IMG/VR virus record: IMGVR_UViG_3300008267_000215
Span: 1-31,745 of that record
DNA length: 31,745 nucleotides
Reading direction: 5' to 3' (one strand)
Source of the DNA: a virus
In this document: one piece after another, positions 5,908-31,745 of the stretch
Layout of the letters: the number at the start of each line of letters is the position of its first letter
Position numbering within the stretch: position 1 is the stretch's first letter
Position numbers and translations under genes: made by a program
Notes under the pieces: model-generated
Seen by the model: the letters and a program-made list of their open reading frames with translations, nothing else
Databases searched by the model: none
Told to the model about the DNA's origin: nothing

Positions 5908-8292
5908 ATGGCAAACGTACGTACTATTAATTCCCCAGGTGTAGAAATTCGCGAAATCGATCTATCTACAAGAGCAGTCACTCCAGTTGGCACAAACGTG
6001 CTTGTCACAGGTTTTGCTCCACAGGGCCCTACCTATGAAATCGTTGACTTAAACTCTCTTTCTGATTTTGAACAGATTTACGGCACCCCCACTAATCCAG
6101 CAGAACGTTATTTTTACTATTCAGTAAGACAGTTACTTACTAATGGCGGTAATCCAACTGTAAAAGTAGCACGTTTACCGTATGGCGCCGAAGGCGGAGA
6201 AGGTACTGCGAGTGAATATAGCGCTCTTGCATTCCCGGTCATAGCAATTCCAACAGACACTACAACCTATAGCAATACACAAATGCTTGCAGGTACAATA
6301 CCTTTAAGCTCTGCTCAAGGCTATTATTTTGGAGAACCTGCTTTAGTAAAATTAACTGAAGATCAGTATCAAACTATTGCTCAAGGTAATTTTACTTGGA
6401 AAGCTACTACGGGTAATATCGGTTTAAGTAGCTTTGTAGTTTCAGGGCCTGCGGCTATTAACTCTCTTAGCGCGGCCGGCCTTATTGTTTTAAACAAAGC
6501 AAAGACTACAATTAATGAAAAGTTTGAAGGTTATTATCTAAACATTGGTGATAGCTATAGTAATAACCCTGCAACCGATTACGACGATGCGGGACATATC
6601 TGGACTGTAGGTTCTTCTTATTTTTCAGATGGCGCATTAGCCTCCCAACAAGGTTATACATTCGTACCTGATACTAGAATTGGCTTTTCATTAAGTGCTG
6701 CCTATACAGCAGGTATTAATAGCTTATCTAAGGATGTTGAAGATCTTCCGACCTTTAATATAGCCGCATCTGGTTATAGTGATACTTTAATACTATCTCT
6801 CTTTAGAGTACGCCCTTCCCCGTTCTCCCCAACCACCACAACCTTGCAATATGTATTGCAGGAAGGCTATACAGGGTCTCTTTACAGTCAACGTACTGTA
6901 CAAGACGAAAATGGTGGTCAACCAGTTTCTTTCTACCTTGAAACAAGTATAGATGATAACTCTAATAATTTACAATTACTTGTTAATCCAAATATTTCTC
7001 AATCAACTGTATGGCTTGATGCTAACGGTAACTCAACAAAGAGAGTAAGAATCTTTAAAGACAATACTCTTGCAACTATTAACAGTGCGCAGACATCAGA
7101 TCCTGACTATACTTTCTACGGTCAAGCTTCTGCGTATCTTGCAATTAGAGTACCCTCGTTCAAGCCGGCAAATAACCTATACGCTCTAGGTACATATGCA
7201 GCAACTTTACCTGCAAATCAAGATAAAACAATCGGTAACGTAAGCACTAAGCTCGATTACGTTCTTAACTTAGCCGAAAATACTGACGTAGTTGATATTG
7301 ACCTTGTAGTAGACGGTGGTTTGTCAACAATTCATGCAACTACAGTAGCCGCTGGTACAAGTGCATTCGATGATACAGTAGTAAGCACCCAGCTTCAAAC
7401 TTATATCAATGCTCTCTCAGCTTCCGATGGCAACCCAGTAACAACAAGCGTATTGCTTAATAACTGGAATACTATTACATCTCAGTTCGAAAGTTTTACA
7501 AGAAACCGTCGTAAGGATTGCTTATTCCTATCTGACCCATTACGTCAGATCTTTGTAACTGGTACCAATTACAAGACTCTTGACGATAAGAGCAAAAACT
7601 TCTCTCAAAACATTTACTGGCCACTTCGCAACAGCTATACAGCATATAATACAAGTTATGCTACAGCTTATGCAAACTGGGCTAAGATCACTGACATCTT
7701 CAGTTCTCAAAGTGTATGGGTACCATTCTCCGGTTATGCTGGAGCAATGATGACCGCAAGTGATGCTGCAACCTACCCTTGGATTGCGCCTGCTGGTTTA
7801 ACTCGTGGTATAATCAATGGTTTAACCGATCTTGGTGTAAATCCACAGCAAAAACAACGCGACCTACTTTACAAGATCTCTCTTAACCCGGTAGTGTTCT
7901 TTCCTAACGAAGGCTATACAGTATTCGGCCAAAAGACCTTACTCAAGGCTCCAAGCGCATTTGACCGTATTAATGTACGTCGTCTATTCTTATTCCTTGA
8001 AAAAGCTACATTACGTTCGATGAGATACTTCGTATTCGAGCCTAATACAACTTTTACCCGTAGCCGCGCTGTAAACACATTAGCCCCTCTCTTCGAGTTA
8101 GCTAAGAACACACAAGGTCTATACGATTATCTAATTGTATGCAATGAGACTAACAACACTGCTGATATAATCGATGATAACACAATGGTAATCGACATTT
8201 ACATTAAGCCAGTACGCACAGCAGAGTTTATCTTAGTAAACTTCTACGCTACTAAGACATCTCAAAACTTCAATGAGCTATTACAAGCTTAA
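5908..8292 (+). CDS. Contractile tail sheath protein (T4 gp18-like)
   Basis: 794 aa, longer than T4 gp18 (659 aa). The N-terminus has the sheath hallmark SPGVEIREIDLS (9-20), followed by VLVTGFAPQGP. The C-terminal domain is typical of sheath proteins: AFDRINVRRLFLFLEKATL (about 683-701), then FVFEPNT near 708 and the closing strands TAEFILVNFYATKT. Sheath subunits stack around the tube and contract to drive it through the host envelope. The extra length lies in a variable middle section (about 100-450), probably surface-exposed insertions. Codon choice in the 3' half is visibly more C-ending than in neighbours, consistent with very high expression. It precedes the tube gene, as in T4. Confidence 0.96.
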   Translation: MANVRTINSPGVEIREIDLSTRAVTPVGTNVLVTGFAPQGPTYEIVDLNSLSDFEQIYGTPTNPAERYFYYSVRQLLTNGGNPTVKVARLPYGAEGGEGTASEYSALAFPVIAIPTDTTTYSNTQMLAGTIPLSSAQGYYFGEPALVKLTEDQYQTIAQGNFTWKATTGNIGLSSFVVSGPAAINSLSAAGLIVLNKAKTTINEKFEGYYLNIGDSYSNNPATDYDDAGHIWTVGSSYFSDGALASQQGYTFVPDTRIGFSLSAAYTAGINSLSKDVEDLPTFNIAASGYSDTLILSLFRVRPSPFSPTTTTLQYVLQEGYTGSLYSQRTVQDENGGQPVSFYLETSIDDNSNNLQLLVNPNISQSTVWLDANGNSTKRVRIFKDNTLATINSAQTSDPDYTFYGQASAYLAIRVPSFKPANNLYALGTYAATLPANQDKTIGNVSTKLDYVLNLAENTDVVDIDLVVDGGLSTIHATTVAAGTSAFDDTVVSTQLQTYINALSASDGNPVTTSVLLNNWNTITSQFESFTRNRRKDCLFLSDPLRQIFVTGTNYKTLDDKSKNFSQNIYWPLRNSYTAYNTSYATAYANWAKITDIFSSQSVWVPFSGYAGAMMTASDAATYPWIAPAGLTRGIINGLTDLGVNPQQKQRDLLYKISLNPVVFFPNEGYTVFGQKTLLKAPSAFDRINVRRLFLFLEKATLRSMRYFVFEPNTTFTRSRAVNTLAPLFELAKNTQGLYDYLIVCNETNNTADIIDDNTMVIDIYIKPVRTAEFILVNFYATKTSQNFNELLQA

Positions 8293-26598: not shown

Positions 26599-27570
26599 TT
26601 AATTCATTACTATTGTATACTGTACTTTAGAAAGATCAAGAGCGGACAAGTCTCTTCCTCCGGCATAGCTAATAGCGGATTGAAGATCTTCTTGGATTTC
26701 TCTAATCTTGCTAGTAATAGTGTTAGTGGGTGTTAGATGTGTAGTGAATCCCTCGATATTCCTTACGGAACCCTTATTTCTCTCAGAAGCACTGCCATAA
26801 TATTCTTTCTTACCGTTCACCATTGTCGCGGGGGAATCCGAGCAGGCTGCAAACATTCCGCCAATCATACAGAATGTAGCGCCTGCTACCAAAGCTTTTG
26901 CAATATCTCCATTCTCTCTAAATCCGCCATCGGCAATAATAGGAACCGGAGACGCGGCCGCGCACTCTTTGATTGCAGTAAACATAGGCATATGAAACCC
27001 AGTCTTATTCTTAGTAGAGCAAACCTGACCAGGACCGATACCAACTTTAATTAAATCTGCGCCCCATTCAGCAAGATCTTTACAGGCCTGGCCGGTAGTG
27101 ACATTACCCGCAATAATAATAGTATTAGAAAACAAACTTCTAACAAACTCAATCATGTCTTTCATAGCTTTGCTATGACCGTGTGCAATATCGATGCATA
27201 CGCAAGATGGGAATAGCGATAATTGCTTACAGTTTTCAAGATCTTCTCTGTCTTGTTGTTTAACACCAACGCTAATAGCTTTCCAGTCAGTACTAATACG
27301 GCGCAGTACGTCAACGTTAGTCATATTAAATCTATGCATAATTGGAATTAATCCAAGAGTATCATAAAGATGGTAAGTTTTTAAATCTACCACTGATTTC
27401 ATATTTGACGGCATAACAGGTAATACAAATCTGTAATCTTTTATCTTAACACTTGTATCTGCCTGAGTACGAGAACTTAGATCACTATAATTAGGCACTA
27501 AATAAACATCTTTATAATTAAGAGCGTAGATATGTTCATTGCAATAGGTAACATTGTAATTGCTTGTCAT
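26599..27570 (-). CDS. guaC: GMP reductase-like (IMPDH/GMPR family) enzyme
   Basis: 323 aa, the usual length of GMP reductases. The TIM-barrel features are in order: LPVMPSNM (50-57), CIDIAHGHS (125-133), IIAGNVTTG (152-160), the catalytic loop KVGIGPGQVCSTKNKTGFH (175-193, nucleophile C184, T186), the phosphate-site IADGGFRENGDIAKAL (212-227) and YYGSASERNKG (257-267). The Glu in SASE (263) is the GMP-reductase type; IMP dehydrogenases lack it and carry a CBS insert, which is absent here. GMPR converts GMP to IMP with NADPH, recycling guanine nucleotides. The usual Ser of GPGS is Gln (182). The start follows a divergent 26-bp region shared with the 64-aa gene. Family: sure; GMPR rather than a repurposed relative: likely. 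Confidence 0.85.
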   Translation of the reverse strand: MTSNYNVTYCNEHIYALNYKDVYLVPNYSDLSSRTQADTSVKIKDYRFVLPVMPSNMKSVVDLKTYHLYDTLGLIPIMHRFNMTNVDVLRRISTDWKAISVGVKQQDREDLENCKQLSLFPSCVCIDIAHGHSKAMKDMIEFVRSLFSNTIIIAGNVTTGQACKDLAEWGADLIKVGIGPGQVCSTKNKTGFHMPMFTAIKECAAASPVPIIADGGFRENGDIAKALVAGATFCMIGGMFAACSDSPATMVNGKKEYYGSASERNKGSVRNIEGFTTHLTPTNTITSKIREIQEDLQSAISYAGGRDLSALDLSKVQYTIVMN

Positions 27571-29447: not shown

Positions 29448-29524
29448 TGGTACCACCGAGGGGATTCGAACCCCTGTTCTCTCCGTGAAAGGGAGGCGTC
29501 CTAACCAGGCTAGACGACGGCGGC
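29448..29524 (-). tRNA. tRNA-Glu (UUC)
   Basis: 77 nt with encoded CCA (29448-29450). Acceptor stem GCCGCCG/CGGTGGT pairs throughout (two G-U). The anticodon loop CTTTCAC gives TTC, and the T-arm GGGG TTCGAAT CCCC is perfect. The D-arm begins TCGTCTAG as in bacterial tRNA-Glu. The outermost anticodon-stem pair is a C-A mismatch. Its first 15 bases are also the end of the YkgJ-like gene on the same strand. Confidence 0.95.
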
Positions 29525-29788
29525 AAGAGAATTTAAACAAATTTTATCTTCTTTCTGCACTGTTCTGCAGATAGTCGGTCTTATTTCGTATATAGAACAA
29601 TTGTTGTATTTATCCAGACAAATACAGCGCCCATCTTCAGCTTGTTTCATTGCAAAAGGTTGAATGTCTCCAGGCTGTAAAAACTCTTTCGGTATAATAA
29701 TAGAATCGGTCAAAGTGACTTCAATCCACTTTCTGTCTTTATTAATACAGCAAGCTCCACAGCCTTTACACTCAACCGGTATTTTCAT
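29510..29788 (-). CDS. YkgJ-type cysteine-cluster (CxxCxxCC) protein
   Basis: 92 aa. Cysteines follow the zinc/iron-cluster family pattern: CKGCGACC at 7-14, then GRCICLDKYNNCSIYEIRPT and C at 53-73 (ICR). Family members are small metal-binding proteins of uncertain function. The start ATG has the box TAAATATT five A before it. The reading frame ends SLAAVV-TAG, and its last six codons plus the stop are the 5' end of tRNA-Glu; the stop sits in the D-arm. Transcript processing at the tRNA 5' end by RNase P would therefore cut the mRNA inside its last codons. The gene lies inside the tRNA cluster. Confidence 0.85.
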   Translation of the reverse strand: MKIPVECKGCGACCINKDRKWIEVTLTDSIIIPKEFLQPGDIQPFAMKQAEDGRCICLDKYNNCSIYEIRPTICRTVQKEDKICLNSLAAVV

Positions 29789-29806: not shown

Positions 29807-29882
29807 TGGATGCAGAGGACGGAATTGCACGCGTCGACCTTCTGGTTATGAGCCAGACGAGCTACTACTGCTCCACTCTGCA
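29807..29882 (-). tRNA. Initiator-type tRNA-Met (CAU) with altered elbow
   Basis: 76 nt with encoded CCA. It aligns closely with bacterial tRNA-fMet: the TGGAGCAG segment, D-stem GAGC/GCTC, and the arm TCTGG CTCATAA CCAGA. Of the three G-C pairs diagnostic of initiators, two are kept and the first is U-A. The 1:72 pair is U-A. The D-loop AGTAGTA lacks the adjacent GG. The T-arm has one extra base (a bulged C in GACG-C-G / CCGTC) and the loop TGCAATT has G where U55 is expected. Partners of the elbow contact are therefore changed on both sides. Functional or decaying: open. Confidence 0.85.
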
Positions 29883-29887
29883 GAAAA

Positions 29888-30360
29888 TGGTGTCCCGCTT
29901 GCCCTTGTGCTTCTAGGTGTGATTTAAGATAGGAGCCTGCACAGCTCTTTTTCTTTTGTCACGTTTTTTATATTATCAGCGTGGGTAATTTACCCTGTAC
30001 GGGTAAACTAAGAACACTTTACGGCCGTGCACAGCCACTGACGCGAGACGATACGCCCTCAATGGGCCGCACTATGCTTAAATCCTATTTATACTCGCAT
30101 AGTCGAGATTAATGGGAGGGCTAATGATTACCTCCATTCAAGAATATCAATTTCAGTTATTCAGTCAGATGATGCCGTCGCATCTTAACAAATCGCCATA
30201 TCATGTATATTCATGCTTACGATTTGTACCTCTGGTAGCTTCGGTTAGCCGACCTAAGCCTCAGCATAGTACCTTACTTACTTTTGATTTCCGAAACTGT
30301 AAACAGGTCTTCCCTGCTCACATACGTTAACCCTATGGATAAGGTTTATTCCGTCACAAA
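29888..30360 (-). ncRNA. Large structured non-coding RNA candidate (~470 nt) in the tRNA cluster
   Basis: Between tRNA-Val and the initiator tRNA no convincing gene is present, but inverted repeats are dense: ACAAATCG/CGATTTGT (30188-30195 with 30220-30227), ACTATGC/GCATAGT (30071-30077 with 30097-30103), TTTACCC/GGGTAAA (29989-29995 with 30001-30007), AATGGGAGG with CCTCCATT (30111-30119 with 30131-30138), and GCCC/GGGC (30055-30067). On the minus strand the 3' end GCGGGAC-A-CCA (29898-29888) pairs over seven bases with GTCTCGC (30049-30043), like a tRNA acceptor with encoded CCA. The setting, length and density resemble the large ornate phage RNAs GOLLD and ROOL, which also sit next to tRNAs. 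Membership is a guess; the structure itself is seen. It shows no group I intron or RNase P core. Confidence 0.55.
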
Positions 30361-30363
30361 AAA

Positions 30364-30440
30364 TGGTGCTTAGTGTAGGACTCGAACCTACGACCTATTG
30401 AATGTAAATCAATTGCTCTAACCAACTGAGCTAACCAAGC
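30364..30440 (-). tRNA. tRNA-Val (UAC)
   Basis: 77 nt with encoded CCA. Acceptor GCTTGGT/ACTAAGC, D-arm GCTCAGTTGGTTAGAGC, anticodon arm ATTGA TTTACAT TCAAT giving TAC, and T-arm GTAGG TTCGAGT CCTAC. All arms are standard. Its 3' end lies three nt from the large structured region. Confidence 0.96.
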
Positions 30441-31348: not shown

Positions 31349-31350
31349 AT

Positions 31351-31563
31351 ATAAAACTATCCACTGGCATTTCAGTGCCCAAACGCACATTGGAGCCAAT
31401 GATTTGGTTAGTTAATGTATTCACGGTATACAATTAGACCGAACTTACTACATCACCACTCGCTACCTATCCCTATTTGGCGCGGAATTACCCGTTGCTC
31501 GCTGTACTTTAGCTTGTCGCTAACACTTTTGGGCCAAAAGCCTTGTCCGTGTGTAGTAAAAAT
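31351..31563 (-). ncRNA. Structured gene-free stretch between tRNA-Ile and the tRNA-like element
   Basis: No supportable gene. Inverted repeats are frequent: the long-range helix TTACTACA/TGTAGTAA (31445-31452 with 31552-31559), CTTTTGG/CCAAAAG (31526-31540), CATTGG/CCAATG (31388-31401) and CACTG/CAGTG (31362-31377). The long-range pair encloses most of the region. It is probably part of the polycistronic stable-RNA transcript; a separate RNA gene is possible. Confidence 0.4.
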
Positions 31564-31634
31564 TGGTGCCGGCATTTTCGGTATCAGTACACTCTAGTCT
31601 GATTTGAACCAGTCTCGCGATTGACCGTACCGGC
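31564..31634 (-). ncRNA. tRNA-like element with acceptor stem and encoded CCA but no standard T-arm
   Basis: 71 nt, starting six nt after the tmRNA 3' end. A seven-pair acceptor stem GCCGGTA/TGCCGGC is followed by A and CCA, and a GTC...GAC D-arm-like hairpin is present. An arm CTGGTT/GACTAG closes the loop CAAATCA, which lacks U33, and the 17 bases before the 3' acceptor strand do not form a T-arm. It may be a decayed tRNA or a tRNA-mimicking RNA processed like its neighbours. Confidence 0.4.
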
Positions 31635-31640
31635 ATAAAT

Positions 31641-31745
31641 TGGTGGACGTGGCGGGAGTTGAACCCGCGTGCTTGATAATTTTCTATCCAGTTTCTACAA
31701 GCTTAGTATTAATAGATAAGACCTTAACATAGTTAATACTCTATG
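31641..31745 (-). ncRNA. ssrA: tmRNA (transfer-messenger RNA), 3' part
   Basis: The minus strand ends with a tmRNA tRNA-like 3' domain: T-arm GCGGG TTCAACT CCCGC (as in E. coli tmRNA), acceptor strand CACGTCC, A and encoded CCA. Upstream, CTAAGCTTGTAGAAACTGGAT mirrors the E. coli segment beginning CUAAGCAUGUAG. The 105 nt seen cover the 3' domain only; the tag-coding frame and the 5' acceptor strand lie beyond 31745. tmRNA rescues stalled ribosomes and tags their products for decay. It is the first RNA of the minus-strand stable RNA cluster. Confidence 0.88.

Follow-up and report, generated by a model that had tools for sequence, protein, structure and literature searches.

The gap between tRNA-Val and the second tRNA-Met in the tRNA array of a T4-like myovirus, a phage known from metagenomes only, consists of three units on the minus strand: an RNA related to manA (element A), a Pistol self-cleaving ribozyme and a structured RNA that is absent from Rfam (element B). 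Computational comparison of related loci reveals the ribozyme motif, a junction between Pistol and B with no spacer, a covarying B structure, a fixed position of B before tRNA-Met and the modularity of the locus. By analogy with small RNAs of phage T4, we consider it probable that B is a stable phage noncoding RNA that is released by Pistol and RNase P and acts in trans during infection.

Genomic Context of the Gap

The window, that is, the whole stretch of DNA analysed, comprises the 31,745 bases of an IMG/VR virus record and has a minus-strand tRNA array at its right end. Its relevant features are as follows.

5908-8292: tail sheath gene
Array order, minus strand: tmRNA 3' part, tRNA-Ile, tRNA-Met, tRNA-Val, second tRNA-Met, tRNA-Glu
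31641-31745, minus strand: tmRNA, 3' part, a member of the array
30364-30440, minus strand: tRNA-Val (UAC), called by ARAGORN and Rfam (RF00005, 74.0 bits), lies upstream of element A in the array transcript
30113-30361, minus strand: element A, RNA of ~250 nt related to manA (RF01745) by model score and covariation
30049-30108, minus strand: Pistol self-cleaving ribozyme, 60 nt (RF02679, 48.1 bits against a cut-off of 34.5)
30053-30054, minus strand: predicted cleavage site G(30054)/U(30053) at the P3-P2 junction, from the Rfam alignment and the published site (PMC4604425)
29892-30049, minus strand: element B, structured RNA of 158 nt with six homologous loci and no Rfam match
30043-30049, minus strand: 5' strand (GUCUCGC) of the B closing helix P1, directly after Pistol P2
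30028-30031, minus strand: self-complementary loop UGCA of the B P2 hairpin, GAUC in the aligned L160 and L180 sequences
29919-29962, minus strand: GUGA...UCAC helix with near-invariant GACAAAA and AAAUC flanking a freely varying hairpin (helices 6 and 7 of B)
29892-29898, minus strand: 3' strand (GCGGGAC) of B P1
29883-29891, minus strand: spacer ACCAUUUUC from B to tRNA-Met, its CCA not conserved in the aligned relatives
29810-29882, minus strand: second tRNA-Met (CAU), RF00005 50.0 bits, missed by ARAGORN
29448-29524, minus strand: tRNA-Glu

The gap itself (29888-30363) is densely structured and gene-free. The original prediction had described it in these terms, leaving the relevant strand unstated and overlooking the Pistol ribozyme, and its description is borne out by folding, covariation and the lack of a kept reading frame. 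Compared with shuffled sequences, the fold of 30049-29892 has a z-score of -3.07 (1 of 200 shuffles as good) and that of 30362-30112 a z-score of -2.52 (2 of 200). Covariation across related phages, proposed at the outset as a check, is present in both B and A and is stronger evidence for structure than the shuffle z-scores. A reading frame conserved among relatives, which would have spoken for a coding region, was looked for and none is kept: the single ORF (72 aa) is encoded by the other strand and the pattern of stops varies among the homologues, and we rejected a coding interpretation of the gap.

Several other features of this part of the window are recorded here as observations. The second tRNA-Met has an odd D loop; this tRNA is also found after B in every relative and after A in several. 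Another gene-free stretch, located between tRNA-Ile and tmRNA (31349-31640, minus strand), has no Rfam match; its segment 31442-31578 is 74% identical to L131 9143-9288, immediately 3' of the L131 tmRNA, its segment 31358-31415 is 91% identical to L123 2580-2637, and L115 601-727 also carries parts of it. The stretch probably represents further unclassified array RNAs. Within it lies a segment of ~70 nt (31567-31636, minus strand) bounded by an acceptor-like 7-bp helix (GCCGGUA/UGCCGGC) with ACCA after it; neither ARAGORN nor Rfam makes a tRNA call here, and the segment is possibly a degenerate tRNA. A gene for a small CxxCxxCC putative zinc- or iron-chelating protein (29510-29788, minus strand; PF03692, 43.7 bits) lies between tRNA-Glu and tRNA-Met, and a gene for an IMP dehydrogenase/GMP reductase-like enzyme (Pfam PF00478, 179 bits) is found at 26599-27570 (minus strand).

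A Pistol Ribozyme in the tRNA Array

Positions 30108-30049 are identified as a Pistol ribozyme by model score, pseudoknot, junction length and catalytic elements, and self-cleavage is predicted on this basis. The copies in the window (48.1 bits), L002 (35.0), L003 (39.8) and L131 (43.8) score above the cut-off, and those in L160 and L180 (32.3 and 33.6 bits) fall slightly below 34.5. P3 and the pseudoknot are paired in the five distinct copies with compensatory changes, that of the pseudoknot in L003. P2 comprises 3 bp only, with compensatory changes in relatives and one mismatch in L003. The junction that holds the cleavage site may vary in its dinucleotide and may not vary in length (PMC4604425), and its length of two nucleotides is constant across the five distinct copies (GU in the window; AA, AU, GA and AA elsewhere). 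All copies have the catalytic elements AAGC and UGCG; the roles of the catalytic purine 32, G40 and G42 have been described (PMC6154101).

The position of a Pistol inside a tRNA array is unusual. A pattern search of newly fetched loci yielded 81 phage Pistol sites, of which only five lie within 1 kb of a tRNA; L160 and L180 account for two of the five. The literature searched, with incomplete coverage, contained no report of Pistol in tRNA arrays. The present case departs from other members of RF02679 both in this setting and in being tied to one particular downstream RNA. Elsewhere, two or three Pistol cores occur within ~0.5-1.5 kb of one another in the phage contigs L173 (12554-14075), L166 (9365-10630), L184 (10121-11494) and L211 (4094-4592).

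Structure and Distribution of Element B

No Rfam model matches B in a scan of the window. Its ends are brought together by the 7-bp helix P1, within which lie, in order, the P2 hairpin, a variable arm, the GACAAAA/AAAUC domain and a small hairpin beside the P1 3' strand. The lettered pairs of P1 form in all six copies, with double changes at four of the seven (GUCUCGC/GCGGGAC in the window, GUCUCGC/GCGAGAC in L002 and L003, GCCUCGC/GCGGGGC in L131 and GGCCGC/GCGGUC in L160).

A model of B built from three copies recovered three loci that had not gone into it, L131 (58.9 bits), L160 (32.6) and L180 (32.1). In the six-copy alignment, pairing is formed in 92.4% of cells, and double changes are seen at 27 of 49 pairs, compared with a mean of 15.4 in shuffles (none of 500 as high) and with 1-6 pairs when the pairing partner is slid. 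These figures come from five distinct sequences (L160 and L180 are near-identical) in a model-fitted alignment, and the shuffle control takes no account of relatedness. These caveats are partly answered by the sliding of the partner and by the out-of-sample copies.

The six-copy model matched 5 of 50 further records, of which one (G032; 16.9 bits, E 0.05) is sub-significant and the other four all carry Pistol. For most relatives, which are contig fragments, absence of B says little. Other candidates were set aside. The pattern GTGACAAAA...ACAAATCAC recovered 27 new loci, none with an upstream Pistol core and none with a convincing B. L247 was dismissed as a B copy (17.1 bits, E 0.03), L006 has only the 18-base pattern in common and lacks both an Rfam match and a tRNA-array context, and L089-L092 match the tRNA-Met pattern and are devoid of B. 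Blast searches returned no named relative of A or B beyond a Pistol core in the phage collection, and nothing for either element in plasmids.

Linkage of Pistol to B and Modularity of the Locus

Pistol P2 and B P1 are directly adjacent in each of the six copies, with no base between them, and no record had a significant B match without a Pistol match as well. Since B always occurs with Pistol and their junction has zero spacer, we regard Pistol and B as a linked unit. tRNA-Met starts 9-13 nt past B in each of the six copies (five distinct); in L131 this tRNA was read by eye, as ARAGORN misses it there just as it does in the window.

The order A, Pistol, B is found in the window, L002 and L131. 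L003, from a contig of 119.8 kb, has tRNA-Val, Pistol, B and tRNA-Met without A, Pistol beginning 9 nt past tRNA-Val, and L115 has tRNA-Val, A and tRNA-Met without Pistol or B. In L160 and L180, tRNA-Gly is followed by ~290 nt, Pistol, B and tRNA-Met, and A was not seen by eye. Because A and Pistol+B each occur apart in relatives, they are modules, which runs against the proposal of one large RNA of ~470 nt. The broader idea of a new or divergent structured phage RNA beside tRNAs holds for the parts, in that B is absent from Rfam and A is weakly recognised, and fails for a single ~470-nt molecule. The earlier guess of a species of ~160 nt was apt, B being 158 nt. The gap is therefore more interesting than first stated, in harbouring a ribozyme-linked new RNA, yet less so in not being one large ornate RNA.

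Element A Is Related to manA

Element A starts 2 nt past the CCA of tRNA-Val. In the window the manA model scores a weak 21.7-23.7 bits (21.7 bits, E 0.0015, for 30364-30105) against a curated cut-off of 55.2 bits. A manA search of 18 IMG/VR records picked by a conserved 21-base pattern gave matches in 14 at E <= 0.1, the best relative reaching 34.8 bits (E 5e-9), and all copies (17-35 bits) remain below 55.2. On account of these scores, we call A manA-related rather than a member of the family. Double changes occur in 21 of 54 pairs among nine aligned sequences. A near full-length model alignment and the consensus fold indicate that A has the helix order and end motifs of manA, from which it differs by its sub-cut-off scores, an extra middle domain and a position in tRNA arrays rather than ahead of protein genes. 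The copies of A have a tRNA nearby on at least one side, and what follows A in the window, L115, L126 and L133 is Pistol or a tRNA rather than the protein gene expected of a 5'-UTR element.

manA is a riboswitch candidate (PMC2864571). True manA matches in four named cyanophages abut tRNAs in two cases and precede protein genes in the other two; full-score examples lie between tRNA-Leu and tRNA-Asn in S-CREM1 (L141 816-1030) and before tRNA-Gly in S-SSM7 (151363-151563). The tRNA-abutting cases sit badly with a purely 5'-UTR role.

Proposed Release and Function of B

We infer the transcription, cleavage, stability and trans function of B as follows. The minus-strand array transcript would carry tRNA-Val, A, Pistol, B and tRNA-Met in that order, and Pistol would cleave itself co-transcriptionally between 30054 and 30053. 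The upstream part (tRNA-Val and A) would come away carrying a terminal 2',3'-cyclic phosphate, and B would be left with a 5'-OH end 4 nt ahead of its closing helix. Cleavage by RNase P at the 5' end of tRNA-Met (29883/29882) would free the 3' end of B. The predicted product is a discrete RNA of ~171 nt (30053-29883) with both ends joined by the 7-bp P1, closure of which may protect it from exonucleases. This RNA would act in trans in infection as an analogue of T4 rnaC and rnaD, its role in trans being argued purely by that analogy.

A more ambitious version, in which B represents a novel class of noncoding RNA in phages, excised by Pistol, closed by P1, forming homodimers through its UGCA/GAUC loop and acting on the host in trans, strikes us as quite doubtful. 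Switches from one palindromic loop to another (GGCC, GAUC and AGCU in OLE) support symmetric chain contacts in work on OLE and GOLLD (PMC12286853). B presents one such switch, UGCA to GAUC, and multimer formation is a long shot because a single loop switch is weak evidence. The idea that the UGCA loop touches the UGC(A/G) loop of the variable hairpin was dropped, as it agrees with four copies but not with L160.

Alternative Explanations

The rival to which we give most weight, while thinking it unlikely, is that Pistol and B serve tRNA processing only, the ribozyme parting upstream array RNAs from tRNA-Met and B being a structured leader or spacer. The constant position of Pistol+B directly before tRNA-Met would suit such a device, as would the L003 Pistol so close behind tRNA-Val, and theta ribozymes of gut phages, for which trimming of tRNA 3' trailers has been proposed, offer a precedent (PMC10879173). 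However, many tRNA junctions of the same arrays do without such a device, and a spacer would not require 130-160 nt in which helices covary and loop motifs are nearly invariant. Still less probable is a natural aptazyme, in which B or A would sense a ligand and control Pistol cleavage and hence release of the flanking tRNAs. The riboswitch candidacy of manA (PMC2864571), the place of A directly upstream of Pistol here, and the abutting of Pistol P2 and B P1, which could stack, all lend themselves to this reading, but the Pistol of L003 has no A next to it, nor was A seen by eye in L160 and L180, and the Pistol motif is complete by itself.

The two remaining readings take up points of the original prediction and seem to us very improbable. 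An acceptor-style helix had been noted there, and it is present: GUCUCGC (30049-30043) pairs with GCGGGAC (29898-29892) and is followed by A-CCA (29891-29888), five nucleotides before the tRNA. This arrangement would be expected of a tRNA-like or tmRNA-like RNA that receives an amino acid at its encoded CCA. Compensatory changes preserve the helix, but CCA occurs in one of six copies (the other five having ACCC, GCCC, AAUU, GCCC and GCCC), there is no T arm, and B draws no tRNA or tmRNA call; since the encoded CCA is confined to this phage, B is not a tRNA mimic. The least credible of all is one ~470-nt RNA of the GOLLD/ROOL kind. The phage origin, the tRNA array and the dense structure all recall these RNAs, but the kinship is not upheld by the Rfam GOLLD and ROOL models, which, like those for RNase P and the group I intron that had been suggested as checks, give no match in the gap even at E <= 1 to 5; moreover, the two modules are found apart and the intervening ribozyme would split such an RNA.

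Comparison with Known Systems

A parallel to B as a free-standing RNA exists in T4, whose tRNA region encodes two small noncoding RNAs, rnaC and rnaD (species 1 and 2 RNAs; ~140 and ~120 nt), in a setting like that of B. They are late RNAs confirmed by northern blot and of unknown function (PMC9697503), and serve as precedent for a stable RNA encoded among phage tRNAs. Models of B have no significant match to rnaC or rnaD, so homology was rejected, and no Pistol was found in T4. Theta (HDV-like) ribozymes of gut phages resemble the present case in placing a self-cleaving ribozyme in a phage tRNA transcript (PMC10879173); they belong to another class, and their proposed task is the trimming of tRNA 3' trailers, whereas the Pistol of this locus would define the start of a separate RNA. 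GOLLD and ROOL are likewise structured phage RNAs of unknown function near tRNA islands (PMC12286853), but they are far larger (GOLLD often >800 nt; PMC12286853), have no model match here and are not joined to a ribozyme. Unexplained small RNAs of phage tRNA regions are already known; unlike B, none that we found is linked to its own Pistol ribozyme.

Structured RNAs without an assigned role in phage tRNA regions, exemplified by T4 rnaC and rnaD, have long been a puzzle. The relationship of element A to manA suggests that manA-type RNAs, classed as gene-control elements, include a tRNA-array branch. The Pistol ribozyme, for its part, acquires a plausible biological role together with a natural RNA partner, and, being built in, it predicts the exact 5' end of B, making the transcript, its processing and its function directly testable.
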